DNA of 64,000 nt. Origin: Agromyces sp. Root81 (GTDB lineage: Bacteria > Actinomycetota > Actinomycetes > Actinomycetales > Microbacteriaceae). Of this stretch, positions 6,419 to 63,547 are shown piece after piece. Positions within the stretch are counted from its first letter, which is position 1; each line of letters opens with the position of its first letter. The stretch covers positions 916,661 through 980,660 of the forward strand of contig NZ_LMIR01000002.1 in NCBI RefSeq assembly GCF_001429165.1, read 5' to 3'. Both the position numbers and the translations under genes were made by a program. The notes beneath the pieces were generated by a model. It was not told the origin of the DNA. It searched no databases and was given only the letters and a program-made list of their open reading frames with translations.

Positions 6419-6978
6419 CAGAGCACCTTGAAGTAGTCGAAGGGCTCGAGGCAGTCGCGGCACTCGTAGAGGGCCTTGCACGACGTCGAGCCGAAGCGGG
6501 CGAGTTCGCGGGTGTTGAGCGAGTCGCAGCGCGGGCACTTCACGGCGAGCTGCACGCGCACGGGGCCCGAACCCCGGGCTGCGGCGTTGCCGGTCGGCGC
6601 CTGGATGCCGTAGGTGCGGAGCTTCTGCTTGCCTGCGTCGCTCATCCAGTCGGTGGTCCACGCGGGGGCGAGCACGAGGTCGACGCGCACCTCGTCGTAG
6701 CCGGCGTGCGTGAGCGCGAGCAGCACGTCGTCGCGCATGGCCTCGAGCGCGGGGCATCCGCTGTACGTGGGCGTCAGCTGCACGCGCACGGCGCCGTCGT
6801 CGCCGATCTCGACCGAGCGGAGCACGCCGAGGTCCTCGATCGTGAGCACCGGGATCTCGGGGTCGGTCACGGTCGCCGCCACCGCCCAGGCACGCGCGGC
6901 CGCGGGGTCGCTCGGCACCGGTCGGGCGACCGATGCCTCGGGTGCCCCGGCGCGCTGCGCCACCGCCGCGGTCACCAT
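6418..6978 (-). CDS. paaD: PaaD, Fe-S assembly/maturation factor for the epoxidase
   Basis: The 186-residue protein has a DUF59/MIP18 domain (WAVAATVTDPEIPVLTIEDLGVL and TPTYSGCPALEAM) with the conserved Cys75. A C-terminal zinc-ribbon-like region follows, with Cys148, 151, 167, 173 and 176. PaaD is needed to mature the phenylacetyl-CoA epoxidase. The ATG at 6978 overlaps the end of paaC by 7 bases and has a CGGAGC site upstream. The N-terminal 25 residues are an Ala/Pro-rich extension. Confidence 0.94.
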   Translation of the reverse strand: MVTAAVAQRAGAPEASVARPVPSDPAAARAWAVAATVTDPEIPVLTIEDLGVLRSVEIGDDGAVRVQLTPTYSGCPALEAMRDDVLLALTHAGYDEVRVDLVLAPAWTTDWMSDAGKQKLRTYGIQAPTGNAAARGSGPVRVQLAVKCPRCDSLNTRELARFGSTSCKALYECRDCLEPFDYFKVL

Positions 6979-7841
6979 GATGCTCCGGGGTGCGCGCGGG
7001 CGAGCACCTGCATCTCGGCGAGGAGCGGCCCGAGGTGCTCGGTGTGACGGCCCTCGCGGCCGCCGCCCGAGGCGATGAACGCGGTGCGGCCGGCCGGCCG
7101 CTCGAGCACGGCCTCCGCGAACACCTCGTCGATGACGGCGTCGAACGCCGGTCGCAGGCTCGACGGCAGCACCGCGACCCCCGTCGCGGCGAGCCGCTCG
7201 ACGAGCGCGTCGTCGACGAACAGCTCGTCGACGTAGGGCCAGGTGTCGGCGATCGCGAGGAGCATGCGACGGCGCGACTCCTCGGTGCCGCCCGCGAGCC
7301 GCAGCACCCACTGGGTCGCGTGATCGCGGTGGTAGTCGACCTCCTTCACCGACTTCGCGGCGATCGCCGCGAGTGTCGGATCGCTCGAGTCGACGAGCCG
7401 CGAGTACAGCTCGAACAGGTACGCGGATGCCGCGAGCTGACGCGCGATCGTGTGGGCGAAGTCGCCGTTCGGCTGCTCGAAGAGCCAGGCGTTGCGGAAC
7501 TCGGGTTCGCCCCGCCAGTAGGCGAGGTCGTCTTCGCTGCGGCCGCTCGCGGTGCCGGCGTAGTGCAGCAGCGAGCGGGCGTGCCCGATGAGGTCGAGGG
7601 CGATGTTGCCGAGCGCCACGTCTTCTTCCAGCTCGGGCGCGCGGGCGATCCACATGCCGAGCTGCTGGGCGAGCACGAGGGCGTCGTCGCCGAGGCGCAG
7701 CGCGTAGTCCGCGGCATCCGGTGAGGCGACCGCCGTGGTGCCGTCGGCCGCGGTGCCCGCGAGCTCTTCGGTGAGCGCGAGCCGGTCGACGGAGACGTCG
7801 CCGTGGAGGTCGCCGTGCGGGTCGAGGTCGGCGCCGCTCAC
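6972..7841 (-). CDS. paaC: Phenylacetyl-CoA epoxidase structural subunit PaaC
   Basis: The 289-residue ferritin-like subunit forms the catalytic core with PaaA but lacks a functional di-iron site in known complexes. Visible family features include LGDDALVLAQQLGMWI, GNIALDLIGHAR, DFAHTIARQ and VKEVDYHRDHATQWVLRLAGGTEES. The N-terminal 40 residues are an actinobacterial-style polar extension. It starts with GTG, whose GTGA overlaps the paaB stop by four bases. Confidence 0.94.
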   Translation of the reverse strand: MSGADLDPHGDLHGDVSVDRLALTEELAGTAADGTTAVASPDAADYALRLGDDALVLAQQLGMWIARAPELEEDVALGNIALDLIGHARSLLHYAGTASGRSEDDLAYWRGEPEFRNAWLFEQPNGDFAHTIARQLAASAYLFELYSRLVDSSDPTLAAIAAKSVKEVDYHRDHATQWVLRLAGGTEESRRRMLLAIADTWPYVDELFVDDALVERLAATGVAVLPSSLRPAFDAVIDEVFAEAVLERPAGRTAFIASGGGREGRHTEHLGPLLAEMQVLARAHPGASW

Positions 7842-8143
7842 AGGTGCTTCACCCCTTCGCTCTTGGTGTAGTAGACCGCGTGGCGGTAGTTCTTGCCTGC
7901 GGGGCTCTCGAAGAAGGCGCCCTTCGCGTCGGGGTCGCTCGTCGTAACCGCGTCGGCGGGCACGACCCAGATCGAGACGCCCTCGTTGCGACGGGTGTAG
8001 AGGTCGCGCGCGTTGCGCACGGCCATGTCGGCGTCGGGCGCGTGCAGCGATCCGACGTGCACGTGCGAGAGGCCGCGGTTGGCGCGCACGAAGACCTCCC
8101 AGAGGGGCCAGGCCTCTGTTCCGATCTCACCGGGTGTCGACAT
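7838..8143 (-). CDS. paaB: Phenylacetyl-CoA epoxidase subunit PaaB
   Basis: The small 101-residue subunit bridges PaaA-PaaC heterodimers in the epoxidase. It shows the typical WPLWEVFVRANRGLSHVHVG start and the NARDLYTRRNEGVSIWVVPA centre. Length is normal. The ATG shares one base with the paaA stop (TGATG), and its own stop overlaps the paaC GTG. Confidence 0.95.
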   Translation of the reverse strand: MSTPGEIGTEAWPLWEVFVRANRGLSHVHVGSLHAPDADMAVRNARDLYTRRNEGVSIWVVPADAVTTSDPDAKGAFFESPAGKNYRHAVYYTKSEGVKHL

Positions 8144-49431: not shown

Positions 49432-49645
49432 CGGGCTTCCGCATGCGCACGCACGCACTCCAGCCGCCTCGCAACCACAAACCGCAAGGCGACGCTCAGC
49501 CAGGTCAGTCTCCCAGCGGGGGCCATTACGGAGCGGTCACGCTTCCCGGACAGACCGAATGTGTAGGCAACGCCGAGTCCGCACCTTCCTCTGCGCAGCG
49601 GTGCGCCTCCGCTCTGCCACGACTCCGCTCAGCGACGATATCGAG

Positions 49646-51718
49646 GTGACCCAGACCTCCGCCCCAAAGCCCGCCGTCGCGCACTGGGTCCCCGCCCGCG
49701 AAGATTCGGCGGCAAGGATATCCGACGTCATCGCTCTTGCGAAGAAGCATCGGCAGACGCTCGGCTTCCTTCCTGACGCAGCGTTTCAGTCGGCTGCTGA
49801 GGCCGGCAACCTCGTTCTTGCGCATCGAGATGGCGCACTTGTCGGCTACGCCTTGTACCGAGTAACCAGGTCGACCATCAAGTTGACGCATGTCTGTGTG
49901 GACACGATGGCACGCGGGCAGAATCTTGGGCAGGCACTCATCCTGCATGTCATAGGCGCTCACCCAGAAGCCCAGGCAATCTCAGCGCGGTGCCGCCGAG
50001 ATTACAACCTGAACTCGTTCTGGGAAGCAGCAGGACTGACACCATCTTCGGAGATCGCCGGCCGGAACGCGAAGGGCCTGCCTCTTACGCTGTGGCGTCG
50101 GGATCTTGGGGAGCCAGACCTGTTGTCGGCTGGAGTGCTTGAGTCTGACCTCCCCCTCGCGGTGCTCGACTCAAACGTCGTGATCGACTTGAACGCGTCT
50201 GCAGAGATAGAACGCCCGTTCCGGCTGGAATCGCAGGCGCTGATGGCTGACTGGCTCGCTGATGAGGTCACGTTCGCGGTGTCGAAGCAACTCGATCATG
50301 AACTGAACGAGAACAACAACGACGGCGAACGGGTGCGTCAGGTCGCCGGGTCACAGGACCTCGTAAGACTGCCGACGACGAGACCCTATGACACCACGCT
50401 GGAAGACACGCTGCTTGCGGACTTCGGTGCAGCCGCTCACGTTCGTGATCGAAGCTTGAGTAAGGACGTCAAACACCTCGCGGACGCGATCCGCGCAGGA
50501 GCTCGCTACTTCGTCACGAATGATGCGGGCGTGATTGGCGCTGGCTCGTGGCTGCGCGAACGCTACAGTCTCACGACAGTCAGCCCCCACGAGTTGATCA
50601 GTGATGTGTTGGACGAGTCGGGTGCGTATCAGCCGTACGCCGCGGGAGTTTTCGAGAGCATTGACTTGCACTGGTTGGCGGCACGGGAGTTCACGGGAGC
50701 CGATCTGGAGCGCGCGTTCATGAACTTCGGCGAGCACGAGCAAGGAGCAGCCTTCCGTGCGCAGCTGCGGACCGCCCTCGCCCATGACGCAGCCCGCCTA
50801 CTTGTGGACCATAAGGGCGCGTTGCTCGCGCTGGTGACGATGGAGCCCGATACGGAGACCCTCCGGGTGCCGATGCTGCGTGTGGCTGGTGGTCAGTATT
50901 CCAGCTCGATTGCTTTGCAGCTTGCCCGCCAGCTTCGCATCGATGCACTTCGCGGTGGCCACGCTGCCGTCGTAGTCACGGATGAGCGGCTGCCTCGACG
51001 ATTGCTCGGCGCCCTTCGGGAGGACGGATTCACACGACGACCTGACGGTCAGCTGTTTTCGACACCGGTGGATAGGCACGTCAGTCTCAGCGACGGACAG
51101 GACCTCAGCCGCGTCCTTGACGGCATTGCAGCTACCCCAGAGGCGATCAGTCCGGCGCTCTCACGCGATCTGGAGTGGCAGTTCTGGCCGCTAAAAGTCT
51201 GGGACGAGACGCCGTGCTATGTGGTGCCGATCAAGCCGAACTTCTCCATGAGTTTGTTCGGATACCCGTTGAACCTCCTGCCACAACGACGAGCGCTTGG
51301 GCTGTCACGTCGTCACGTGTACTTCCGGAGCGGACACAACAATCCGTTCCGCGAGCTTCCAGCGCGGGTGCTTTGGTACGCATCGACACACCAGGACGCC
51401 AACGTGCAAGAGTTCTTCGCACTCTCACTGGGCGTTGGAGCCCACGTGCTTCCTGCTGAAGAGGCACACGAGCGATTCAATGCACTGGGCGTGTACCGTC
51501 GGAAGGATGTACTGGCGGCAGCCAGTAAAGACGGCAACGTAACTGTGCTCGTGATGGAGGACACCGAAATCCTGACGAAACCGATCAGCCTCGACGAGTT
51601 CCGTTCTCGAGCGGCAACGTATGGGGTCACTGCCGAGTTCCAAGCGCCGCGGAGAATCCCGCCCAGCCTGTTCCGAGAACTGATGCACGAGTTCAACGCG
51701 TCCGGTCGTGGTCGATGA
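49646..51718 (+). CDS. GNAT acetyltransferase-PIN nuclease fusion protein
   Basis: The 690-residue protein has three parts. Residues about 15-155 are GNAT-like (LVGYALYRVTRSTIKLTHVCVDTMARGQNLGQALI). Residues about 170-340 are a PIN RNase domain with acidic residues in VLDSNVVIDLN, DHELNEN, SKDVKHLADAI and FVTNDAGV. The C-terminal 350 residues are not assigned and include an ARR-like GNAT segment (RVPMLRVAGGQYSSSIALQLARQLRID). It is followed with 4-base overlap by an ASCH gene. PIN and GNAT domains are both toxin folds, so a toxin or defence function is plausible. GTG 49646 is preferred since upstream residues are Arg-rich. Confidence 0.78.
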   Translation: MTQTSAPKPAVAHWVPAREDSAARISDVIALAKKHRQTLGFLPDAAFQSAAEAGNLVLAHRDGALVGYALYRVTRSTIKLTHVCVDTMARGQNLGQALILHVIGAHPEAQAISARCRRDYNLNSFWEAAGLTPSSEIAGRNAKGLPLTLWRRDLGEPDLLSAGVLESDLPLAVLDSNVVIDLNASAEIERPFRLESQALMADWLADEVTFAVSKQLDHELNENNNDGERVRQVAGSQDLVRLPTTRPYDTTLEDTLLADFGAAAHVRDRSLSKDVKHLADAIRAGARYFVTNDAGVIGAGSWLRERYSLTTVSPHELISDVLDESGAYQPYAAGVFESIDLHWLAAREFTGADLERAFMNFGEHEQGAAFRAQLRTALAHDAARLLVDHKGALLALVTMEPDTETLRVPMLRVAGGQYSSSIALQLARQLRIDALRGGHAAVVVTDERLPRRLLGALREDGFTRRPDGQLFSTPVDRHVSLSDGQDLSRVLDGIAATPEAISPALSRDLEWQFWPLKVWDETPCYVVPIKPNFSMSLFGYPLNLLPQRRALGLSRRHVYFRSGHNNPFRELPARVLWYASTHQDANVQEFFALSLGVGAHVLPAEEAHERFNALGVYRRKDVLAAASKDGNVTVLVMEDTEILTKPISLDEFRSRAATYGVTAEFQAPRRIPPSLFRELMHEFNASGRGR

Positions 51719-52164
51719 CAGACTACGTCCTAATTTCGATCCAACCGAGGTTCGCCGACGCGATCTTCCACGGAGCGAAAACGCACGAGTTACGTCGACG
51801 GTTTCCGGAGAATCTCACTGGCGCAAAGGCCTATGTGTATTCGTCGACGCCGGCCCGAGCGGTCGTCGGGTCATTCCGGATAGCCACGGTCAACCGGCAC
51901 CCGCGCTGGTGGCTTGCACGGATGCGACGTCGAGCCACAACGCTTTCCGCTCAAGAGATCAACACCTACCTCGATGGGCAGCACCACGGCACGCTCGTCG
52001 AGGTGTCGGAACAGCTTCAATTCCCGCGCCCGGTCCCCCTAGCTCACCTGCGAAACCTAGGCCTCGAGCCCCCGCAGAGCTACCGCTTCCTTTCGCCCGC
52101 CCTCAGCCTGGAGCTCGAGGATGCAGCGGGACTCAGGGGCACACTGCACTCAAGCAACGCTTGA
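51715..52164 (+). CDS. ASCH-domain (PUA-like) protein, copy 1
   Basis: The 149-residue protein has the ASCH motif start (VLISIQPRFADAIFHGAKTHELRRRFPE) and strand/loop pattern (AYVYSSTPARAVVGSFRI). ASCH domains bind RNA or modified nucleobases and often accompany toxin or helicase genes. Its ATG overlaps the PIN-fusion stop (ATGA). A paralogue lies after the DruA-family gene at 55637-56044. Confidence 0.82.
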   Translation: MTDYVLISIQPRFADAIFHGAKTHELRRRFPENLTGAKAYVYSSTPARAVVGSFRIATVNRHPRWWLARMRRRATTLSAQEINTYLDGQHHGTLVEVSEQLQFPRPVPLAHLRNLGLEPPQSYRFLSPALSLELEDAAGLRGTLHSSNA

Positions 52165-52347: not shown

Positions 52348-52689
52348 CTACCGCCCAAGCCTCGAACGCACCTGCGCGATTGAGCCCGCCGAGACCAACC
52401 GCTCACGTGCGTTGCGAGCCGAGTTGCCCGATCCGGGGTCAGGCGCAGGCCGGCTGACCTCAGCCCAAACCGCATCGAGGGAGAGGCCGAGGACCTCGGT
52501 GATCGCAGCGATGGTGGAGAAGGCGGGCGTCGCAACGCGACCCGTCTCGATCTTCCGCAGCGTCTCGGGTGAGACACCTGCATCGAGCGCGACCTCGAGC
52601 ATCGAGCGCTCTCCCCGAGCGCGACGCAAGAGGGCACCGAGCCGTTCTCCGCGCTCGAGCTCCGCGAGCGTATGCGGCAACCTGACCAT
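52348..52689 (-). CDS. XRE-family transcriptional regulator
   Basis: The 113-residue protein has one XRE HTH (LGALLRRARGERSMLEVALDAGVSPETLRKIETGRVATPAFSTIAAITEVLGLSL) and a short basic tail. It is divergent from the methionine aminopeptidase gene. Nested palindromes between the genes are the probable operator. Confidence 0.83.
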   Translation of the reverse strand: MVRLPHTLAELERGERLGALLRRARGERSMLEVALDAGVSPETLRKIETGRVATPAFSTIAAITEVLGLSLDAVWAEVSRPAPDPGSGNSARNARERLVSAGSIAQVRSRLGR

Positions 52690-52754: not shown

Positions 52755-53525
52755 TTGATCGAGATCCTGAACACCACCGAGCTCGCCCAAGCGCGGGAGA
52801 CCGGCGCCCTCGTGGCCCACATCCTGCAGACGCTCAAGATCCGCAGCACGGTCGGCACGAACCTCCTCGACATCGACCGGTGGGCCGAGATCATGATCAT
52901 CGAGGCCGGAGCCCAGTCGTGCTACGTCGACTACGCGCCGTCGTTCGGTCGCGGACCGTTCGGACACTCCATCTGCACAGCCGTCAACGATGCAGTGCTT
53001 CACGCATTGCCGTATGACTACACGCTCGCCGACGGCGACCTTCTGACCCTCGACCTCGCCGTCTCCAAGGGCGGAATCGCTGCAGACTCCGCCATCAGCT
53101 TCGTCGTGGGCGGATCCAAGCCCCCGGAGAGCATCGCCATGATCAGCGCAACCGAACTCGCGTTGACCGCAGGGATCGCCGCCGCCCGGCCTGGGGCTCG
53201 TATCGGCGACCTCTCCCATGCCATCGGCTCGGTCCTCAGTGAAGCGGGATACTCGGTCAACACCGAGTTCGGAGGGCACGGCATCGGGTCGACGATGCAC
53301 CAGGACCCGCACGTCTCGAACACCGGACGGCCCGGCCGTGGGTACAAACTGCGCCCCGGGCTGCTGCTCGCACTCGAACCGTGGGTCATGTCGGACACCG
53401 CCGAGCTCGTTACCGACGCCGACGGGTGGACGCTTCGAAGTGCAACAGGCTGCCGGACAGCGCACAGTGAGCACACGATAGCGATCACCGATGACGGAGC
53501 GGAAGTCCTCACCTTGCCGCGTTGA
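52755..53525 (+). CDS. map: Type I methionine aminopeptidase (M24 family), accessory copy
   Basis: The 256-residue metalloprotease has the five metal ligands in order: Asp in LTLDLAVSKGG, Asp in AADSAISF, His in GGHGIGSTMHQDPH, Glu in LALEPWVM and Glu in SEHTIAI, plus an active-site His in FGHSICTAVN. It starts with TTG behind GAGAGGCG. An accessory Map paired with a dedicated XRE regulator suggests conditional use, for example resistance to a Map inhibitor. That role is an inference. Confidence 0.88.
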   Translation: MIEILNTTELAQARETGALVAHILQTLKIRSTVGTNLLDIDRWAEIMIIEAGAQSCYVDYAPSFGRGPFGHSICTAVNDAVLHALPYDYTLADGDLLTLDLAVSKGGIAADSAISFVVGGSKPPESIAMISATELALTAGIAAARPGARIGDLSHAIGSVLSEAGYSVNTEFGGHGIGSTMHQDPHVSNTGRPGRGYKLRPGLLLALEPWVMSDTAELVTDADGWTLRSATGCRTAHSEHTIAITDDGAEVLTLPR

Positions 53526-54040: not shown

Positions 54041-54426
54041 CCGCCACCACGGCCGCGGGCTAAACGTCGCACGCCACCATGGCCGCGGTGGGGCGAGCTG
54101 TTCGACAGGGGTGCGTAGGCAGTGGGCAACCACCTCACACCAGGCGAGGCACAACTTGTCGGCGCCCACAGTAGTGACGGCTCACGAGGGAAGGTCGGTT
54201 GGATCGGCGTAGCAGGATTCCCGCATCCGATACGAGGCCGACACGGGTACAACAGGCCCTCGTCAGACCGCGCATAGCTATGGCATGTCAGGACTAGATG
54301 CGGTGCTTCGCACCAGGTATCGGCGGCGACGGCCTGGGTACGCGACCCCTGGATGTTGGGTATTGGGTTACTCGTGCCCTTCTGGCATGGGAGAGTTGAC
54401 AGGCCGCCTTGATAGAAGGGTTTGGG
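54041..54426. repeat. Gap with a 30-base-spaced direct repeat
   Basis: GCCACCACGGCCGCGG (54043-54058) recurs as GCCACCATGGCCGCGG (54073-54088), one base different, with the in-frame spacing of ten codons. The rest of the 386-base gap up to the DruA-family start shows no convincing gene, although a TTG/ATG choice for that gene lies near 54409-54427. Confidence 0.55.
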
Positions 54427-55692
54427 ATGCCGACGCAGTGGCCTCTTTCTGAGCCTGACCTTCCGCGGAACCCGGACCTTCAGGAGCTTCGGGCACTCGT
54501 TCTAGAGCACCTCCGCGAACAGGGTTTCAGATTCAATGAGGCCGGCCTTCTTAGCCCTGTGCCGCAGGACAAGATCGCCGTCCGACGGCTGCACGAGCAT
54601 GCCGTTGCGGCCCAGAGGGACCGGGCGCGACCGGCCCTCGCTTCGCACGATGCACGGTTCGCGCTTCGACTCGTTCGCGGTGAGCAGCTTGACCCTGCAC
54701 GGATCAAGCCCCGCATGATCATTCTGCCGCCAGGACGGTCTGACCTCGCTCTCTTGTGGCGATGGTGTTCGTTGCACTGGTCCATCCCAGTCTCGAGCGG
54801 CTACGGACGTCGGATCCGAGCTCTCGTAGTCGACGATGGTCACGAAGGAGCTGTTATGGGTCTCATTGGTCTGGCCGACCCAGTCTTCTCACTGCGCGTT
54901 CGTGACGACGCAATCGGCTGGGACCCGCAACGGCGGTCGGAGAAGCTGACGAGCGTAATGGACGCATTCGTCCTTGGCGCCGTCGAGCCCTACAACCGCT
55001 TGATCGGAGGCAAGCTCGTTGCGATGCTGCTACAAAGCGACCAGCTGCGAGACGAGTTCGAGGCCAGGTACGGTCACCGGCGGACGCTGATCAATGGGCG
55101 AGATCCGCACGCTCAGCTGGCCCTCATCACAACGACATCTGCGCTCGGAACCTCGTCGATTTACAACCGCGTACTCCGTGAAGACGGCCAGCGCGCGATG
55201 ACGCCCGTGGGCTTCACGAAAGGGACCGGGGATTTCCATCTCTCGGGTGAAATCTATGACCAGCTGGTCCGCGTTGCGCTGGCCGCAACCCCTGACGGCA
55301 TCTCACACCGGCATGAAAGTTGGGGCACGGGTTTCCGGAACCGCCGAGAGGTCGTACAGCGGGCACTGACTGCGCTCGGCTTCAGCCCAAGCCGGATGCG
55401 CATGCATGGGGTGGCCCGAGAGGTCTACACGGCACCGCTCGCGAGCAACTCTTTCGCCTGGTTGCGCGGAGACGAAGCTGCGCTTGAGTGGAATACGGTC
55501 ACGTCGGAAGAGATCGGTAGGTGGTGGCGGCAGCGTTGGGCAATGCCGCGATCCGAACGCGATCAGTCATGGCGCACATTCGACCCCGCGACTTGGCGGA
55601 TGTACGGCCCAGCTTCGACGATGGAAGAGAAGTCCAATGGTGATGCCGATTCTGCTTTCAGTCAAACCTCGCTTCGCGGCGAAACTGCTTGA
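54427..55692 (+). CDS. DruA-family (DUF4338) protein, Druantia-type defence gene
   Basis: The 421-residue protein resembles DruA proteins. Recognisable pieces are GLIGLADPVFSLRVRDDAIGW, MDAFVLGAVEPYNRLIGGKLVAMLLQS and ALITTTSALGTSSIYNRV. No other Druantia gene (druB-E helicase set) is adjacent; instead an ASCH gene overlaps its end by 56 bases. A stand-alone DruA homologue may be a remnant or a separate system. The ATG at 54427 has GAAGGG upstream. Confidence 0.78.
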   Translation: MPTQWPLSEPDLPRNPDLQELRALVLEHLREQGFRFNEAGLLSPVPQDKIAVRRLHEHAVAAQRDRARPALASHDARFALRLVRGEQLDPARIKPRMIILPPGRSDLALLWRWCSLHWSIPVSSGYGRRIRALVVDDGHEGAVMGLIGLADPVFSLRVRDDAIGWDPQRRSEKLTSVMDAFVLGAVEPYNRLIGGKLVAMLLQSDQLRDEFEARYGHRRTLINGRDPHAQLALITTTSALGTSSIYNRVLREDGQRAMTPVGFTKGTGDFHLSGEIYDQLVRVALAATPDGISHRHESWGTGFRNRREVVQRALTALGFSPSRMRMHGVAREVYTAPLASNSFAWLRGDEAALEWNTVTSEEIGRWWRQRWAMPRSERDQSWRTFDPATWRMYGPASTMEEKSNGDADSAFSQTSLRGETA

Positions 55693-56044
55693 CGGCACGA
55701 AGGCCGTTGAACTTCGACGGTCATTTCCGACACTCGACGGGACGGAGGCATTCATCTACGCTTCCACCCCGGTCCGGGCAGTCATTGGCGTGCTCCAGAT
55801 TGTCGAAGTTCAGGTATCGCCTGTGGAAGAGATCTGGGATGCTCACAACCAGCACATGGCCCTGCAACGGCACGAATTCGACTCGTACTTAGCGGGAAGG
55901 ACTCGGGCGTGCGCACTCCTGGTCCAGTCCCACCGCAGGTTTGAGCAGCCTGTGTCCCTCGCGGAACTGCGTCACGCAGGGCTCACCCCACCTCAGAGTT
56001 TTCGCTACATCAGACCGGGTGATCTTCTGCACGGGAAGCAATAG
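55637..56044 (+). CDS. ASCH-domain (PUA-like) protein, copy 2
   Basis: The 135-residue protein (start MVMPILLSVKPRFAAKLL) has the same ASCH layout as the 51715 gene: KPRFAAKLLDGTKAVELRRSFP, AFIYASTPVRAVIG and AELRHAGLTPPQSFRYI. It starts inside the DruA-family gene. Pairs of ASCH genes following different defence-type genes suggest they travel as accessory factors. Confidence 0.8.
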   Translation: MVMPILLSVKPRFAAKLLDGTKAVELRRSFPTLDGTEAFIYASTPVRAVIGVLQIVEVQVSPVEEIWDAHNQHMALQRHEFDSYLAGRTRACALLVQSHRRFEQPVSLAELRHAGLTPPQSFRYIRPGDLLHGKQ

Positions 56045-56190
56045 TCTTAGTGTTCATCGGCCACCCCCGATGCCGCGCTGATGATCATGTGAGTCGGTGT
56101 CTGATCCATCCATGCGCAGCTGGCAGTATCTAGTTAAAGGTGTCGGTGGTTGCGGCTATCGTCATCGCAAGAGGAGAGAAGGGGACCGCA

Positions 56191-56661
56191 GTGATTCGTG
56201 TACCCGACAGCGTTCAACCAGTATCCGAGATCGACCAGGCGACCCGGCAGGAAATCGTCGATCTGCTGTATTTCCTCCCGGTCCTTTACCCAGGTGGCGC
56301 GGAATGGCTCACGAAAAGGCTGATCGATGTTGAGCGGGGTCGCGCTTGGGCCGACTTGGTTCGCGTCAATGGAGAACTCGTGGGCATCTCTATTGCCCTG
56401 AAGAAGCCCTCCGGCAGGCTGAAGATTTCGACGCTGTTCATAGCCCCTGAGGCCCGCTCACACGGTTATGGTTCGGCCCTCCTCGACAGAATGCTGAAAC
56501 GTGCAGCGGAGAGTGGTGCGCCCGAGGTGTACATCACTGGGGCATCAACCGTTCGCGCACAGTTGGAACCATTGCTCTCCTCGCGCGACTTTGAACGCGT
56601 TGCATTGGAGCAAGGCCGCTACGGCCCCGGGCGCGACGAGGACATCTACGTTCGCCGCTGA
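56191..56661 (+). CDS. GNAT-family N-acetyltransferase
   Basis: The 156-residue enzyme has motif A LFIAPEARSHGYGSALLDRMLKRAAESG and a preceding GELVGISIALKKP. GTG at 56191 has AGAAGGGG upstream; a longer frame to 56140 is less likely. It converges with the membrane protein of the kinase system 12 bases away. Confidence 0.8.
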   Translation: MIRVPDSVQPVSEIDQATRQEIVDLLYFLPVLYPGGAEWLTKRLIDVERGRAWADLVRVNGELVGISIALKKPSGRLKISTLFIAPEARSHGYGSALLDRMLKRAAESGAPEVYITGASTVRAQLEPLLSSRDFERVALEQGRYGPGRDEDIYVRR

Positions 56662-56672
56662 GCGAACGCAGC

Positions 56673-57986
56673 TCAGTCGCGAGGGCCGATGACACGGATG
56701 AGGCGGAACAGCCAGCCTTCGAACCGGTGATACGTGTCACGCACCCAGCGGGCCGCGCTCTGCAATGCACCAGTCCACTCGAGCACGTAACCGATGGCTG
56801 TCACAAGCACAGCGAAGCTGATGTACGGAACGAGGCTGAGGAGCCACGTTCCGAATCCCGTGGCTATGTCGATCAACTCCGCGCGAGGCGTGAGGTCGAA
56901 CAGGAACCAGCTGAGGCCGACCGTCAGAAGCGCGGCGAGGATGGCCGTCGGCAGCGCCCAAGGACGCGTGTCAATCTTGAAATCGGTGAAGATCCGGGTC
57001 GGTTTATTAATCGTCACCCAGCCGGCGTACGGGTCGCGAGTCGGCTGATCGGGTTCCGACAATGCTGGCGGACCATTCGTTGTGACTCGCTTCGTCGTTG
57101 TGGTCGACGATGACGTACGTTCGTTGTTCGTGGCGCTGGTCGACTCAGTCGCTGAGACTGTCTCGGTCGTTTCCGAAGTCACGACTGCCTCAGCGGGCGC
57201 GGTCGCTGCACCGTTCGCTGACTTGAAACGCCAGTAGTAGACGACAAGGCGTGACCGACGGGAAAGCTCAGGTGCCCGATCCAGATAGTCCGCCCACACA
57301 CGCCCTTCCAATAAACGGATGTACCGCGGGTCCGGATGCGTGGTCCGGCCGTGCAGCCAGATCGGTGCCATTACGAACGCAGCAATGGACTCGATGGGAC
57401 GGACACGGTCGATGAGCTCGGTACCGCCTGGAACTTTCTTCGAACTACGCAAGTCGGAGATGCGGAAATCGAGAACAGCACCAGTCCGTTTGAGCCTCGT
57501 CTTCGTCCACTGCCAGGTTCGCCCCGTGCTGCTCACCGGGAACCTGAGTCGAACGTATGCTTCCTGGCCGGGTTCGATCCGCGCGGCTAGTGGAACATCC
57601 CACAGCGAGAAACCTGGGGACGTGTACTCGTCTGCACGCGTAGCCGCTTTCGCACGTACGTCGATCACTTTGAAAGGGCCGTTCTCGTAGTCGAGCGTGC
57701 TGTCGTTTATGGCCGTGATCTGTGAATCGAAGATGAGCGCAGCGATCCGTGGGTCCATGACCTTGTCGAAAAGACTCTCCGGCTCGAGAGTGTCGAATGG
57801 GAGTGCGAGCGAGATCTTGCTGACCGGTTCCTGCGTCGCCTTGATCCGGATTCCGACATCGAATACGAACATCCGGCGGTGCACACCGATTGCGGCGAGG
57901 GACCACAGGTTCAGATGAAGCCGGGTCACCTCGAAACCGGTGCGTTGCTCAAGGTCGGCGGCATCGAGGACGGCGAAGAAGGTCAA
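56673..57986 (-). CDS. Membrane protein, third gene of the kinase-ATPase system
   Basis: The 437-residue protein has a soluble N-terminal domain (1-255), a Thr/Ser/Glu-rich disordered linker (263-308) and two TM segments near 343-365 and 380-403, then a short basic tail. TTG is the start: GGAGG lies 5 bases before it and it follows directly after the TAG of the previous gene. Its placement last in a kinase/ATPase operon and membrane character suggest an effector role, by analogy with abortive systems that end in a membrane protein. No enzymatic motif is seen. Confidence 0.72.
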   Translation of the reverse strand: MTFFAVLDAADLEQRTGFEVTRLHLNLWSLAAIGVHRRMFVFDVGIRIKATQEPVSKISLALPFDTLEPESLFDKVMDPRIAALIFDSQITAINDSTLDYENGPFKVIDVRAKAATRADEYTSPGFSLWDVPLAARIEPGQEAYVRLRFPVSSTGRTWQWTKTRLKRTGAVLDFRISDLRSSKKVPGGTELIDRVRPIESIAAFVMAPIWLHGRTTHPDPRYIRLLEGRVWADYLDRAPELSRRSRLVVYYWRFKSANGAATAPAEAVVTSETTETVSATESTSATNNERTSSSTTTTKRVTTNGPPALSEPDQPTRDPYAGWVTINKPTRIFTDFKIDTRPWALPTAILAALLTVGLSWFLFDLTPRAELIDIATGFGTWLLSLVPYISFAVLVTAIGYVLEWTGALQSAARWVRDTYHRFEGWLFRLIRVIGPRD

Positions 57987-59189
57987 CTAGGCCTCCAATT
58001 CATAGGACACACGGACCGAAACGGCCGGGTTCCGGGGGCGATTATGCGCCGCCTCGCTGAGATCGACAGAACCAATCTTGGCGAGCGCGTCGGAGATCTC
58101 AGACAGATCACCCAGCGGGAGCAGGTGGGTTTGCCTGATTCCGCGAGAATACTCAACCCCACGGTAGTGGGTTGGAGCGAGCATCTGGACTCGTACGTCC
58201 GGATGAGCTTCGCAGAATAGTGCAACGGCGATGGACTGCATCTTCGAGCCGAATGGCAGGACTGTGAGCCTGTATCGATGTTCGGCCCGTTCGTACTCTG
58301 CTTCGAGAACCCCAAGGGTCTCCTCGTAATTCAGGGTTGAAGTGATCTTCGGCTGGATGGGGTGGTCGGCGTCACCTGCCGAGTTGATTCGAATCATGGC
58401 GTCCAGGCGCCATTCGTCCTCTTCGCGTGGGGGCCGGCCCGCGACGTAAGTCACGGACGGGTGGGGCACGTCGACGTTGAATGAGGTATCGATCCGGTCG
58501 AGGGAGGCGCGCACTCTGTCGGCGTTGAAGCCACAGATAACAAGCGCGCGTTCGGGAGCTGGGTCGATCTGTTGTCCGGGACGTTCGATGAGGTGGGTCT
58601 CGTCGTCCGCATCGAAGTCCAAGCCCAGCGTTGTCGCGACAGGTTCGCCGTTGCTTGCATCGGCGATGAGCTTCTCAGCCACAGCTGGAGTTGGGGCGTA
58701 GTCCATGGCTTGGGTGTAGAACACGTCAAGTCGCAACCGTCGCGAAGATCGGCTGAGTTCGAACAGCACGCGGAGCACACGAAGGATGAAACGTCCGCTG
58801 CAGCCACTGACATCGAGTACGACGGACACCTGGTTAACGTCACCCACCTGCCCGATGAGACGGGCTAGCGACTGGTCGAAAACATGGTCAGCGCATCCGC
58901 CGTCCAGCGAGATACTTGTACCCCCGAGGCGGATGATCGCCTCATCGAGTTCGGCCCTTCGGGCCGCGTTGTTCTCCTTGTTCGTCGTGAACTCGAGCAC
59001 GATGGTGAGGTCGACCGTCGCGCCCGCGCCTGCAAGCCGTTGCGCAACACTTGATGCCCGATCCTCGAAACCGTTCGCGACGATGAGGACGTTCCATGCT
59101 TGGCCAAGTAGTGCCGAGTCGTCGCCAACCGGTTGCAGCCGAGGGAGCTGCGCGATGACGTTGGTAGCGGTGATCTCCTGGATTCGCAT
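57987..59189 (-). CDS. Protein of unknown fold, second gene of the kinase-ATPase system
   Basis: This 400-residue protein is not recognised. It is alpha/beta-rich, with a Rossmann-style first strand (WNVLIVANGFEDRASSVAQRL). Other notable stretches are VVLDVSGCSGRFILRVLRVLFEL, DVFYTQAMDYAPTP, ALVICGFNADRV, and VLPFGSKMQSIAVALFCEAHPDVRVQMLAPTHYRG. The repeated strand-helix units suggest a nucleotide- or ligand-binding sensor. ATG 59189 lies two bases after the ATPase stop; a GTG at 59216 overlaps it. It is probably translated with its neighbours. Confidence 0.75.
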   Translation of the reverse strand: MRIQEITATNVIAQLPRLQPVGDDSALLGQAWNVLIVANGFEDRASSVAQRLAGAGATVDLTIVLEFTTNKENNAARRAELDEAIIRLGGTSISLDGGCADHVFDQSLARLIGQVGDVNQVSVVLDVSGCSGRFILRVLRVLFELSRSSRRLRLDVFYTQAMDYAPTPAVAEKLIADASNGEPVATTLGLDFDADDETHLIERPGQQIDPAPERALVICGFNADRVRASLDRIDTSFNVDVPHPSVTYVAGRPPREEDEWRLDAMIRINSAGDADHPIQPKITSTLNYEETLGVLEAEYERAEHRYRLTVLPFGSKMQSIAVALFCEAHPDVRVQMLAPTHYRGVEYSRGIRQTHLLPLGDLSEISDALAKIGSVDLSEAAHNRPRNPAVSVRVSYELEA

Positions 59190-59191
59190 GC

Positions 59192-61690
59192 CTAGGCTTC
59201 CTCTCCGGGACTCCACAGTTCCAGGTGGGGCGGAGCCGTCGTCTTCGTGCGCCGCGCTCGGTAGTCATCGAGGAAGAGCTTCGGGTCGGAAAGGAATGAC
59301 CCGAATCCGGCCGGGTCGGTCTTGACCGCGTCGTTCTTCCCGAGCCCTGCGCGGAATGCGGGCAAATAGATGCGGCGGAAATGCCAGCGGAGCGTTGTGA
59401 GACGCTCATGGCGGCTGCGGCCCACATCCAATTCGATGAAGACAGCTCGCCGCAGTAGTTCGCGGGTGAAGCGAATCTGAGCCGGAGTGAGCAGCGCGCT
59501 CACGCTACCTTCGTCGTCCACTTCGATCCTCGGGATCTGCACGGGAACGTCCACCCCGGCTTCGCGGTTCGTCGCTTCAGCGAGCATCTGACTCACGAAC
59601 GTGCCGAACGCGGTTGCATGAAAGTGCATTTCTTTGCCTAGCGGGCGATGATGAGTGACCACGCGCAGAAGGCGCCGACTGACGTCCTGAATCGCTCTGC
59701 TTTGCTCTGACGGGCTGACGCGGTTCCGGCTCTCTTCGTTTCGGTTCGCGAGAATGCTCCGGTACACCAGCAGCAATGTAGAGATGTCTCCAGAGCAGAG
59801 ACTCGCGATGGTCTCCATCCCGTGGTACGCCGAGGACGCACTACTACCCTTTTGGCTCAACTGCTCCGCAATTGCACCCAATGTGCTCGACCGACCGATC
59901 AGCTCGTCTGGGGTACCTTTCCAGCCCGCTGCGCTCAGCCGGTTGATGAGCAGGTCTTCAGCGAACTTGAGGTTCCGCTGGTCGTTGGCTCCGAGGAACT
60001 CTGTCCCGCAGTCGATTTCGATGCGCTCGCGTGCAAGGTCGACGGTGAGCTCGCCACCTTGATAGTCCTCGACCGAACCGTACTTCTCGCTTGAGACCTT
60101 GAACAGGTGGCTTGACCTGCGCTCCCAGACAATCGGAAGCAAGCATCGCTGCACTTCCTCCGACAGCCGGTGCGTGCTGAAGTCATCGAGGAGGAAAGCG
60201 ATGGGATGTTTCTTGAAAAAGGGTAGGAGACCAGCAATCTGCGACGTGATGTCGCCAAGAAAGCTGAGGCCGGTTACAGGTTCACTCGGCTTGGTCCCGT
60301 CATGAAGGCGCAGCTGCGAGGCGAAGATCGCGGCCTCGACCGTGTCGAACGCAGAACGGAGGGGGTCACCGCCGAAGATTACGTTCGCGTTCTGTGGCAG
60401 GTACTGGTGGAGAAGTTCAGCGATGGCTCGTGCCTGATTCTCCCCGAGACCGAACACACTGACGCTGTCATTGCGTTTACTCAGTGCCAACAGCGTCGCG
60501 AGCAGTTCACGCGCATGGATGAGGTTGAAGTAGTGGAGGATCTCGGCTCGGTGCTCAGTGACTTGGGCTTCCGTCCGGAACTCAGCGAACCGGTTCTGGA
60601 AGTCAGAAGTGCACGATACGTAAACGCCCGCAACATTCAATTGCTGCATCGGGACCGGCTCGTCGCGCCGAGCAGCATGGGCCCGGAGGCTGAGCCACCG
60701 CATCACCATGCTCTTGCCGCAGCCGCGCGGCCCGGTCAGCAGCAGGGGGTCCTTGGACGTGACCTTCTCGACCCAAGAAGCGTGTGCGAACAGCCGGAGG
60801 AGGAGATCGTCGCTCCCGATCTGTTCAGCACTGATGTACTCAAATGGGTTCGTCATCGGAGACGAACTGGTATCGCCGCCGTATTGCGCACGGGTGTACG
60901 CGTCGCGGAATCGGTCCGCGATGGCCGTGCCCCGCAGACTGCGGCTCGCGTCATCCTCGGTAAGGAACTGCAGTAGCTGTCGAACCTCACGAAGGAACCG
61001 ACGGTCAGCAAGCGTGAGATTCCGACGCGCATGCACGGCGTTGTGCATGAGAGCAATGTGATGGGCAAGGTGGTGAAGATCGTCCCACGGCTTGACCGTC
61101 GATGCCGTCGGTTTCATGCTGCCTGTGTCAACAATCACCGCTTGCTGCCGGACCTCATTGTCTGAGTACGATGCCTCGCCACGGTGAGCCGGGCGGATCA
61201 GAATGTTGTTCGCATGCAGATCGTCATGGGCGAGGTCCTTGGCATCTAGCGCGTCCAACGCCCTTGCCATCTGTTCGACGAACTCAAGGATCGTTCGCGT
61301 CGTAATGTGCTCGGTCTGAGTTTGTAGGAACTCGTGGAGCGTGACGGCGCCGTCGACCCATTCCTCAACGATGACAGTGAACTGGCGGCCGGAACGATGG
61401 GTCCACGCCTCAACGTCGACACATTGCGTGAACAACGGAACGGGAAGCCCCTGGCGAATCTTGAACTCGTGCTCTATCTCACGTCCGTCAAGGTCTTCGA
61501 TTGGAGTGAATTTGGCTGCGTACCGATTCTTGTAACGGTCCTCGACGAGCCACACGATCCCCTTCTGGCCATACGCAACGAACTCGACGGCGGTGTACTC
61601 ACGGCTGGCAGAGAACTTGCCGCTCTCAAATGCTGACGCGTCGCGAAGGAGATCGACGGTGGCTTCATCCAACTGCAGCGGCACTGACAT
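59192..61690 (-). CDS. Protein kinase fused to a P-loop ATPase, first gene of the kinase-ATPase system
   Basis: The 832-residue protein has two domains. Residues about 30-260 are a eukaryotic-like kinase: glycine loop GQKGIVW (41-47), Lys60 in YAAKF, catalytic loop HDDLHANN (155-162) and metal site DTG (188-190) in place of DFG. Residues about 285-830 are a P-loop ATPase with Walker A GPRGCGKS (320-327), Walker B FLLDDF (499-504) and ORC/Cdc6-style helical segments (CSGDISTLLLVYRSIL). It is suited to sense a trigger and phosphorylate or remodel a partner. ATG 61690 has AAGGA upstream. Confidence 0.83.
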   Translation of the reverse strand: MSVPLQLDEATVDLLRDASAFESGKFSASREYTAVEFVAYGQKGIVWLVEDRYKNRYAAKFTPIEDLDGREIEHEFKIRQGLPVPLFTQCVDVEAWTHRSGRQFTVIVEEWVDGAVTLHEFLQTQTEHITTRTILEFVEQMARALDALDAKDLAHDDLHANNILIRPAHRGEASYSDNEVRQQAVIVDTGSMKPTASTVKPWDDLHHLAHHIALMHNAVHARRNLTLADRRFLREVRQLLQFLTEDDASRSLRGTAIADRFRDAYTRAQYGGDTSSSPMTNPFEYISAEQIGSDDLLLRLFAHASWVEKVTSKDPLLLTGPRGCGKSMVMRWLSLRAHAARRDEPVPMQQLNVAGVYVSCTSDFQNRFAEFRTEAQVTEHRAEILHYFNLIHARELLATLLALSKRNDSVSVFGLGENQARAIAELLHQYLPQNANVIFGGDPLRSAFDTVEAAIFASQLRLHDGTKPSEPVTGLSFLGDITSQIAGLLPFFKKHPIAFLLDDFSTHRLSEEVQRCLLPIVWERRSSHLFKVSSEKYGSVEDYQGGELTVDLARERIEIDCGTEFLGANDQRNLKFAEDLLINRLSAAGWKGTPDELIGRSSTLGAIAEQLSQKGSSASSAYHGMETIASLCSGDISTLLLVYRSILANRNEESRNRVSPSEQSRAIQDVSRRLLRVVTHHRPLGKEMHFHATAFGTFVSQMLAEATNREAGVDVPVQIPRIEVDDEGSVSALLTPAQIRFTRELLRRAVFIELDVGRSRHERLTTLRWHFRRIYLPAFRAGLGKNDAVKTDPAGFGSFLSDPKLFLDDYRARRTKTTAPPHLELWSPGEEA

Positions 61691-62731: not shown

Positions 62732-63547
62732 TCAGCCGCCGCGGCCGGCCAGTGGTGGCCGTTCGATACTTGGCAGCGCGACCCATTCCCAGTTGAGGGT
62801 TCGGAGGTCGAGCACGGCAAGATTGCCGGCCCGGAACTCGTTCGCGAGCGAGTAGATGCGCCTCCCGTCGTCGAGCTGCCGTTCACCTTTCACGTGCATG
62901 TGCCCGTGGGCGAGGATCCGGGGACACACACCCTCCCAGACGGAGGTGACCCTCGCACGTGCGGCGGCTGAGTAGGCCTGTGCCTCAGCACCCCAATGGC
63001 CCCGTTTCATCTCCTCAGCTGCTTCGAGCGTTCCGCCGTCGACACAGTCGTGGGTGAGTAGGACGTCGACCCCGCCGCCCGACATCGCGTACGAGGCTTC
63101 GGCATCTGTCGGTGTCTCCTGCAGCCACCAGTCCCTGCCTGGCACGCGGGCTTCGAAATCCATCGAAGCCGCACCGCCGAACGAGAGGAACGACCGACCG
63201 TCGAGTTCGAACCGAAGGCCGCGCGGCAGCGCCCACACATGGTCACTCAGCGGCACCGCGTGGCTGGGCCGGGCCGCGAACGCAGCGTCCAACAAGGCCC
63301 AGTCGTCGTGGTTGCCGGGTGTGAGGAGCACCCGGTCGATGCCGGACCGGGCGCACCAGTAGTCGAGTGTGCCCAGGAACCCGGGCGGACGCTCCCCGGA
63401 CCAGATGCCGAGGTCCCCGAGATGGAGGATCGTACGGACGCCTGGGTGCTGGCGAGCCAGCGCCGGTATCGCACGCTGAACCCAGGAGACGTTGCCGTGC
63501 CAGTCCCCCGCCACCGCGACAACGTGCTCGTCGCCGGCCGATGTCAT
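62732..63547 (-). CDS. Calcineurin-like metallophosphoesterase
   Basis: The 271-residue enzyme has the five family motifs: D-x-H (AGDWHGN), GDLG, GNHDD, TH(D) in LLTHDCVDG and HGHMH. These bind two metals and hydrolyse phosphoesters, possibly nucleotides or nucleic acid ends. Its ATG overlaps the small upstream gene by 4 bases (ATGA). The substrate is unknown. Confidence 0.88.
   Translation of the reverse strand: MTSAGDEHVVAVAGDWHGNVSWVQRAIPALARQHPGVRTILHLGDLGIWSGERPPGFLGTLDYWCARSGIDRVLLTPGNHDDWALLDAAFAARPSHAVPLSDHVWALPRGLRFELDGRSFLSFGGAASMDFEARVPGRDWWLQETPTDAEASYAMSGGGVDVLLTHDCVDGGTLEAAEEMKRGHWGAEAQAYSAAARARVTSVWEGVCPRILAHGHMHVKGERQLDDGRRIYSLANEFRAGNLAVLDLRTLNWEWVALPSIERPPLAGRGG

Follow-up and report, generated by a model that had tools for sequence, protein, structure and literature searches.

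The window considered here is a stretch of 64,000 nucleotides from Agromyces sp. Root81 (contig NZ_LMIR01000002.1), and our subject is an operon of three intact minus-strand open reading frames (ORFs) that spans positions 61690 to 56673 and encodes products of 832, 400 and 437 amino acids. The first gene (59192..61690; ATG at 61690, stop codon at 59192-59194) encodes a kinase-ATPase fusion, hereafter KA. The second (57987..59189; ATG at 59189, stop codon at 57987-57989) begins 2 bases after it and encodes a predicted tandem CARF protein, and the third (56673..57986; TTG start at 57986), with a gap of 0 bases after the CARF gene, encodes a protein with predicted transmembrane (TM) helices. A purine-rich, ribosome-site-like sequence lies upstream of each of the three starts. 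This tight layout, with a spacing of 0-2 bases, had been pointed out in a preliminary description of the locus and is confirmed, all ORFs being intact. The G+C content of the operon region is about 60%, compared to about 70% over the first 45 kb of the window, and the low-GC stretch continues for about 8 kb past the window end; because of this, the region looks like an acquired island. A promoter and terminator scan yielded 0 promoter-like and 4 terminator-like sites, not above shuffled sequence, and no RNA families were found at gathering scores within 44-64 kb of the window.

KA consists of a protein kinase domain at residues ~29-209 (61064..61606) and an ORC/CDC6-like ATPase at residues 281-600 (59891..60850). 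The kinase was recognised by a Pfam match to PK_Tyr_Ser-Thr (1.4e-8 over residues 103-167) and by a sequence search of solved structures, where residues 29-209 match PknA structures at 8.4e-6; the ATPase matches PF24389 (ORC-CDC6-like) at 2.6e-38. The motifs given in the preliminary description are placed as it said: HDDLHANN at 155-162, with the catalytic Asp157; DTG at 188-190; the Walker A motif GPRGCGKS, with Lys326 and an arginine inside the P-loop; and the Walker B motif LLDDF, with Asp502 and Asp503. Among 22 full-length KA sequences (own included), D157, N162, D188, R322, K326, D502 and D503 are kept in all 22, as is a GPRGCGKS-type loop with Arg, and K60 and E75 are kept in 21. DTG is found in the window and in three other Microbacteriaceae KAs, the remainder having DFG (DFR in one). 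Because the kinase residues are conserved in 21-22 of the 22 sequences, the KA kinase should be able to bind ATP and phosphorylate. The top PADLOC family for KA is CARF6--CARF_STK_AAA (PDLC01925; 2.5e-38, residues 105-678), followed by the PD-T4-6 and mad6 kinases. A separate profile search gave a weak PglW match (0.002).

The middle product had been taken for an unknown alpha/beta protein, but it can be recognised as a CARF protein of the tandem type. In cyclic-oligonucleotide immunity, CARF domains serve as the sensors. The PADLOC scan (E up to 1) listed 11 families for this protein, all of them CARF6, a name that reportedly goes back to Makarova et al. 2020, with a best value of 2.1e-9; Pfam gave nothing below 0.07 and NCBIfam nothing at all. 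Structures were predicted for the CARF and TM proteins, and Foldseek matches were re-ranked with VIA-align. The model of the middle protein appears to have a CARF-type Rossmann fold, with a putative N-terminal CARF domain at residues ~31-165 (58695..59099; GFEDR and DVSG loops) and a C-terminal CARF-like domain at residues ~208-349 (58143..58568; PFGSKMQ loop), both delimited from predicted structure and conservation. Csm6 accounts for five of the ten Foldseek chains at E up to 0.001, with a TM-score of about 0.25. The CARF profile, searched against the sequences of solved structures, returned a single row at 0.08 (a light chain). Across 39 CARF sequences, conservation reaches at least 90% at 37 positions, many of them in the loops that follow strands (GFE-R, D-S, GSKMQ), which is where CARF proteins hold their ligand. 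GSKMQ belonged to the pattern that fetched the 32 genome loci described below, but P312, G314, S315, K316 and Q318 are invariant also in 16 CARF relatives that were found without this pattern. No nuclease domain was found in the CARF protein by family profile searches, Pfam and PADLOC included. We predict that the middle protein is a tandem CARF ligand sensor; the earlier logic of sensor/switch, adaptor and membrane effector thus requires revision at its middle member, which resembles a ligand sensor and not an unknown adaptor.

The third product had been described as a two-TM protein with a disordered linker, and two hydrophobic helices and a linker modelled with low confidence (residues ~259-315) were indeed found. 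A soluble beta domain at residues 4-255 (57222..57977), whose fold is predicted to resemble the beta domains found in M1 aminopeptidases and in a subunit of an oligosaccharyltransferase, is followed by a Ser/Thr-rich linker at residues ~258-320 (57027..57215), predicted to be disordered from the low-confidence region of the model, and by a predicted two-helix membrane hairpin at residues ~342-405 (56772..56963; hydrophobic helices 345-363 and 381-399). Among 20 TM proteins (P0017-P0036, own included), exactly two hydrophobic helices are present in 16, three in two and one in two. Neither the TM profile nor DruA, the product of a neighbouring gene described below, found anything up to 0.1 among the sequences of solved structures, and the beta-saddle/two-TM fold is a prediction of the model.

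Homologues of all three proteins occur elsewhere, as found by protein and genome searches, and together with the conserved kinase and ATPase residues they indicate that the observation is not due to chance. A peptide pattern derived from the CARF alignment, including GSKMQ, was scanned against one genome per species (84,980 species) and yielded 32 loci. KA adjoins CARF in 27 of these, or in 26 of the 29 in which at least 400 bp of upstream sequence are present; the three without an adjacent KA are L018, L023 and L031, and L025 and L026 start at or within ~120 bases of the CARF gene. Five loci were treated as close: the window, L002 (Leifsonia), L003 (Microcella pacifica), L004 and L051 (another genus of the same family); L041, from genome G559, duplicates L003, and the two count as one locus. 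Repeats (L001, L034-L040, L048-L050 and L053) and the weak DruA rows L054-L057 are outside the counts. The three genes occur together as a compact KA-CARF-TM unit in the window, L002 and L051. KA in L002 and L051 is 51-59% identical to that of the window, the TM protein of L002 is 44.7% identical, and the CARF-TM junction measures 0 bases in the window, 3 in L002 and -1 in L051, where the TM start overlaps the CARF stop. A lack of co-occurrence elsewhere would have refuted the preliminary description, which on this point stands. The KA-CARF pair recurs widely; the TM gene is present in three of the five close loci and in one of the 32 pattern-scan loci. The absence of TM from many loci means that the KA-CARF core can exist without it. 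In the TM-less L003 and L004, small genes homologous to each other lie directly upstream of KA (6885-7439 and 6891-7373, respectively), the one in L003 having no Pfam match.

Outside the Microbacteriaceae, KA is usually preceded by a DNA methyltransferase (N6/N4; Pfam-assigned for three), in 19 of the 22 loci with at least 1 kb of upstream sequence, the loci without an adjacent homologous methyltransferase being L009, L031 and L033. No homologue of this methyltransferase was found in any of the five close loci. The Bradyrhizobium plasmid locus L047 (4637-7332) has KA divided over two genes, which lie between the DNA methyltransferase and CARF; an Mrr-type endonuclease gene is situated upstream. 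The relatives adjoin restriction-modification and BREX-type genes; nine of ten neighbours match PADLOC, but these ten were picked by eye, and the figure is not an enrichment test. ThyX-like thymidylate synthase genes stand beside KA-CARF or CARF in unrelated bacteria (L004 5936-6793, L047 8512-9435, L010 826-2259 and L031 9400-10320).

The CARF protein is rare and patchy in its distribution. It was detected in 5 of 398 genomes of the family, own included (two strong and three weak matches), in 2 of 297 genomes of the order (own, and one weak fused protein) and in 2 of 366 genomes of the genus of G038 (one strong, one weak); the TM gene was detected in one of 398 family genomes, its own. These counts are lower bounds, as the protein searches scored the 7995-7999 candidates sharing most words and the genome searches few candidates per genome. 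Pattern scans of viral contigs found no relatives, and plasmids yielded a single match for CARF, over 29% of the query, and none for TM, so that spread by phages or plasmids is not backed.

Beyond the operon's 3' end, on the plus strand, lie DruA (54409..55692; PF14236 at 2.1e-78, PADLOC DruA at 1.1e-96), an ASCH-like gene (55640..56044) and a GNAT acetyltransferase gene (56140..56661) that is convergent with the TM gene. The last two have homologues in three of the five close loci, as does TM itself (window, L002 and L051); in L002, the ASCH-like homologue matches ASCH below the cut-off (0.011). DruA lies within 5 kb of KA-CARF in all five, in agreement with the earlier remark that the surrounding island has defence genes. 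It was found in one of 150 family genomes (own), and, with the window DruA as query, in 3 of 297 order genomes, the two non-own matches having 33% identity over part of the protein. Since DruA is that rare and the KA identities of the close loci are 45-59%, its position beside five of five divergent KA-CARF pairs is unlikely to be due to chance, and DruA is likely a conserved neighbour associated with the operon. A calcineurin-like phosphoesterase gene is also present near the unit in the window (62732-63547) and in L051 (1575-2459); these islands share more than the core genes. Elsewhere in the island, a 719-amino-acid protein with an N-terminal GNAT domain (49559-51718) matches the candidate defence family PDC-M11A and is followed by a relative of the ASCH-like gene (51715-52164). 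A divergent pair consists of a helix-turn-helix-like protein, assigned by eye (52348-52689, minus strand), and a copy of type I methionine aminopeptidase (52755-53525, plus strand). A lanthionine synthetase-like gene (DUF4135 and LANC_like) lies ~3-6 kb past the window in the same low-GC island (L046 4242-7055).

The system had been put forward as a candidate undescribed one. The combination of kinase, ATPase and CARF is in fact already captured, in fused form, by CARF6--CARF_STK_AAA; what stands is the TM-bearing three-gene unit, which recurs in L002 and L051. According to Makarova et al. 2014 (PMC4012209), a small family combines a Zn ribbon, kinase, AAA+ ATPase with a P-loop arginine, CARF and winged helix-turn-helix (wHTH) in one protein, for which kinase-mediated signalling was proposed. 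PDLC01925 has the same order of kinase, ORC/CDC6-like ATPase with P-loop arginine and, last, CARF; in the window, unlike in the fused family, the tandem CARF protein has a gene to itself, and a two-TM gene joins the set. The fused protein of L045 (1236 amino acids, order kinase-ATPase-CARF, 1503 bits to PDLC01925) is ~24% identical to KA, and because it carries the same parts in one chain and in the same order, we argue that CARF may act directly on the kinase-ATPase. Two further PADLOC families are relevant: CARF6--CARF_CARF_CARF, whose profile matches the middle protein of the window, and CARF6--CARF_CARF_CARF_TM (PDLC01924), which has an attached TM segment and is matched by the CARF protein of L042, but is not listed for that of the window, where the membrane part, together with a beta domain, is encoded by a gene of its own. 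The methyltransferase-KA-CARF units of other phyla (L005-L033, L047) have homologous adjoining KA and CARF genes, usually with the methyltransferase, and no TM or DruA homologue was found in the sequence of these loci that was examined.

A second CARF6 operon occurs in the same family and comprises a D12 methyltransferase, a calcineurin-like phosphatase with wHTH, an ORC-CDC6-like ATPase and CARF6 (L042 5396-10549; L043 1932-6675). All four genes are homologous between L042 and L043 (Pfam on L042; PADLOC), and the phosphatase stands where KA has its kinase. Parts of such an operon are present in L044 (methyltransferase and CARF) and L052 (ATPase-like and CARF genes).

Among type III CRISPR CARF effectors, the nuclease of structure 6sce (Can1) carries a pair of CARF domains in a single chain; in the window CARF protein, as stated above, no nuclease domain was found. 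A role as a type III CRISPR accessory was rejected because PF22335 (Cas10 palm) was not detected in the own genome and was detected in 5 of 14 controls. CBASS was likewise rejected, PF18144 (SMODS) being absent from the own genome and detected in 3 of 14 controls, in two over the cut-off; other nucleotidyltransferase families were not searched. With MADS and BREX (mad6 and PglW kinases, ORC/CDC6-type ATPases), the operon has in common the kinase, the ATPase and, in relatives, the methyltransferase. However, KA matches only the kinases, below family level, and the window operon has a CARF component, which to our knowledge neither MADS nor BREX includes. PglZ and BrxC are defining components of BREX; models for them were not among the PADLOC matches listed (E up to 1; for KA, the best 25 of 30 rows) for six window proteins, the scan having covered only these six proteins of the island. 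A full Druantia system was rejected as well: a DruA neighbour is present, but there is no DruE-sized ORF in 40-64 kb, the longest ORF listed there having 872 amino acids (KA itself), compared to lengths of 1460-2055 for the DruE models shown. In the open-licence literature, we found no description of separate KA and tandem-CARF genes, of the methyltransferase pairing or of the beta-saddle/two-TM gene, nor did we meet a kinase-linked CARF protein that had been characterised by experiment; PMC12669027 does not mention CARF6, STK or kinase.

We tentatively propose, with somewhat less than even confidence, that the operon works as an anti-phage switch under the control of a ligand: the sensor would gate the kinase-ATPase, and the TM protein would execute the response or localise it. 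In this scheme, for which we infer the ligand, the direction of signalling, the phosphorylation substrate and the outcome, a nucleotide ligand that the infected cell produces or sets free would bind between the two CARF domains, the ligand-bound CARF protein would switch KA, KA would phosphorylate its partners, and the TM hairpin would disturb the membrane, such that growth stops. Any CARF ligand would come from another source than Cas10 or SMODS enzymes, because neither domain is present in the genome.

Several observations weigh against this proposal. We came across no functional study of any member. At 35 bits, the CARF protein matches its PADLOC family only modestly, and the other five of the ten Foldseek chains are unrelated Rossmann-type or transporter chains. 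No ligand-making cyclase was found in a search that covered two domain families (Cas10 palm and SMODS). Two close loci (L003 and L004) lack the TM gene, which also went undetected in 31 of the 32 pattern-scan loci, at least one of which (L009) ends just after CARF. Basic residues place both ends of the TM protein inside only weakly: of 16 proteins, 10 have an excess ahead of helix 1 and 12 have one following helix 2, and the window protein shows the former but is tied for the latter. TM relatives of 375-379 amino acids have no Ser/Thr-rich linker, which therefore cannot be a conserved kinase target, and phosphorylation of the linker as a conserved step is ruled out; among the Ser, Thr and Tyr residues of the window TM protein, Ser127 is the sole position at which all 14 aligned sequences have Ser or Thr. 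Finally, the window KA is nearest to that of L002 (58.7%), whereas its DruA is nearest to that of L003 (63.2%, compared to 53.3% for L002). Because KA and DruA identities rank the loci differently, and the window and L051 have the phosphoesterase in common too, DruA and the other neighbours may be linked but separately exchanged cargo.

Other explanations assign the parts differently. The operon might be a DNA sensor of the BREX or restriction type, with the ORC/CDC6-like ATPase detecting incoming foreign DNA, the kinase as effector and CARF as a regulator; TM would do no more than anchor the complex at the membrane, where the DNA enters. The methyltransferase immediately upstream of KA in the relatives, the resemblance of the kinase to PD-T4-6, mad6 and, weakly, PglW, and the related operon that joins a D12 methyltransferase and a phosphatase to an ATPase and CARF6 all fit such a sensor. 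It is nevertheless a fairly unlikely account of the window operon: the homologous methyltransferase is absent from the sequence examined at all five close loci, so that self-marking by this enzyme is unavailable there. A TM protein that senses envelope damage, with the kinase pathway downstream and CARF setting the threshold, would agree with the likeness of the beta domain to aminopeptidase and oligosaccharyltransferase-subunit domains. We consider it improbable, given that the charge distribution weakly favours a cytosolic beta domain, that no hydrophobic stretch was found at the N-terminus of this domain, and that the TM gene is optional among the close loci.

A stress or RNA-repair signalling operon with no phage role, using CARF as RtcR does, finds a precedent in RtcR-type regulators, which also contain CARF domains according to PMC4012209 and PMC11090510. 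The rarity of strong CARF matches (two of 398 family genomes, own included), the low-GC island, the DruA neighbour and the restriction-type neighbours of the relatives make this option slightly more improbable still. Least probable, in our estimation, is that the whole system consists of KA-CARF, with TM as an unrelated passenger gene. The presence of TM in only three close loci would fit, but in those three it directly follows CARF on the same strand despite the divergence of the TM protein, and three further pairs of TM and CARF relatives on contigs of equal size (11067, 9199 and 23001) suggest linkage.

Compared to the switch proposed above, a broader evolutionary scenario is more doubtful. 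The methyltransferase found beside KA in the relatives suggests an ancestral system that could distinguish the cell's own DNA from foreign DNA. An ancestral system of methyltransferase, kinase-ATPase and CARF might have lost the methyltransferase in the Microbacteriaceae and gained a kinase-controlled beta-saddle membrane effector and a DruA partner; if so, a single anti-phage pathway, distinct from CRISPR and CBASS, would combine CARF signalling, phosphorylation and membrane attack.

The KA-CARF-TM operon is a new arrangement of a known family for which we found no experimental characterisation in the open-licence literature. Here, the sensor, the kinase-ATPase and the membrane protein are encoded by three separate genes that can be expressed and mutated individually, and therefore what non-CRISPR CARF proteins sense and switch becomes directly testable. 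The KA-CARF pairing spans phyla, and the methyltransferase-kinase-CARF units found in many of them represent a further, broadly distributed candidate defence system.

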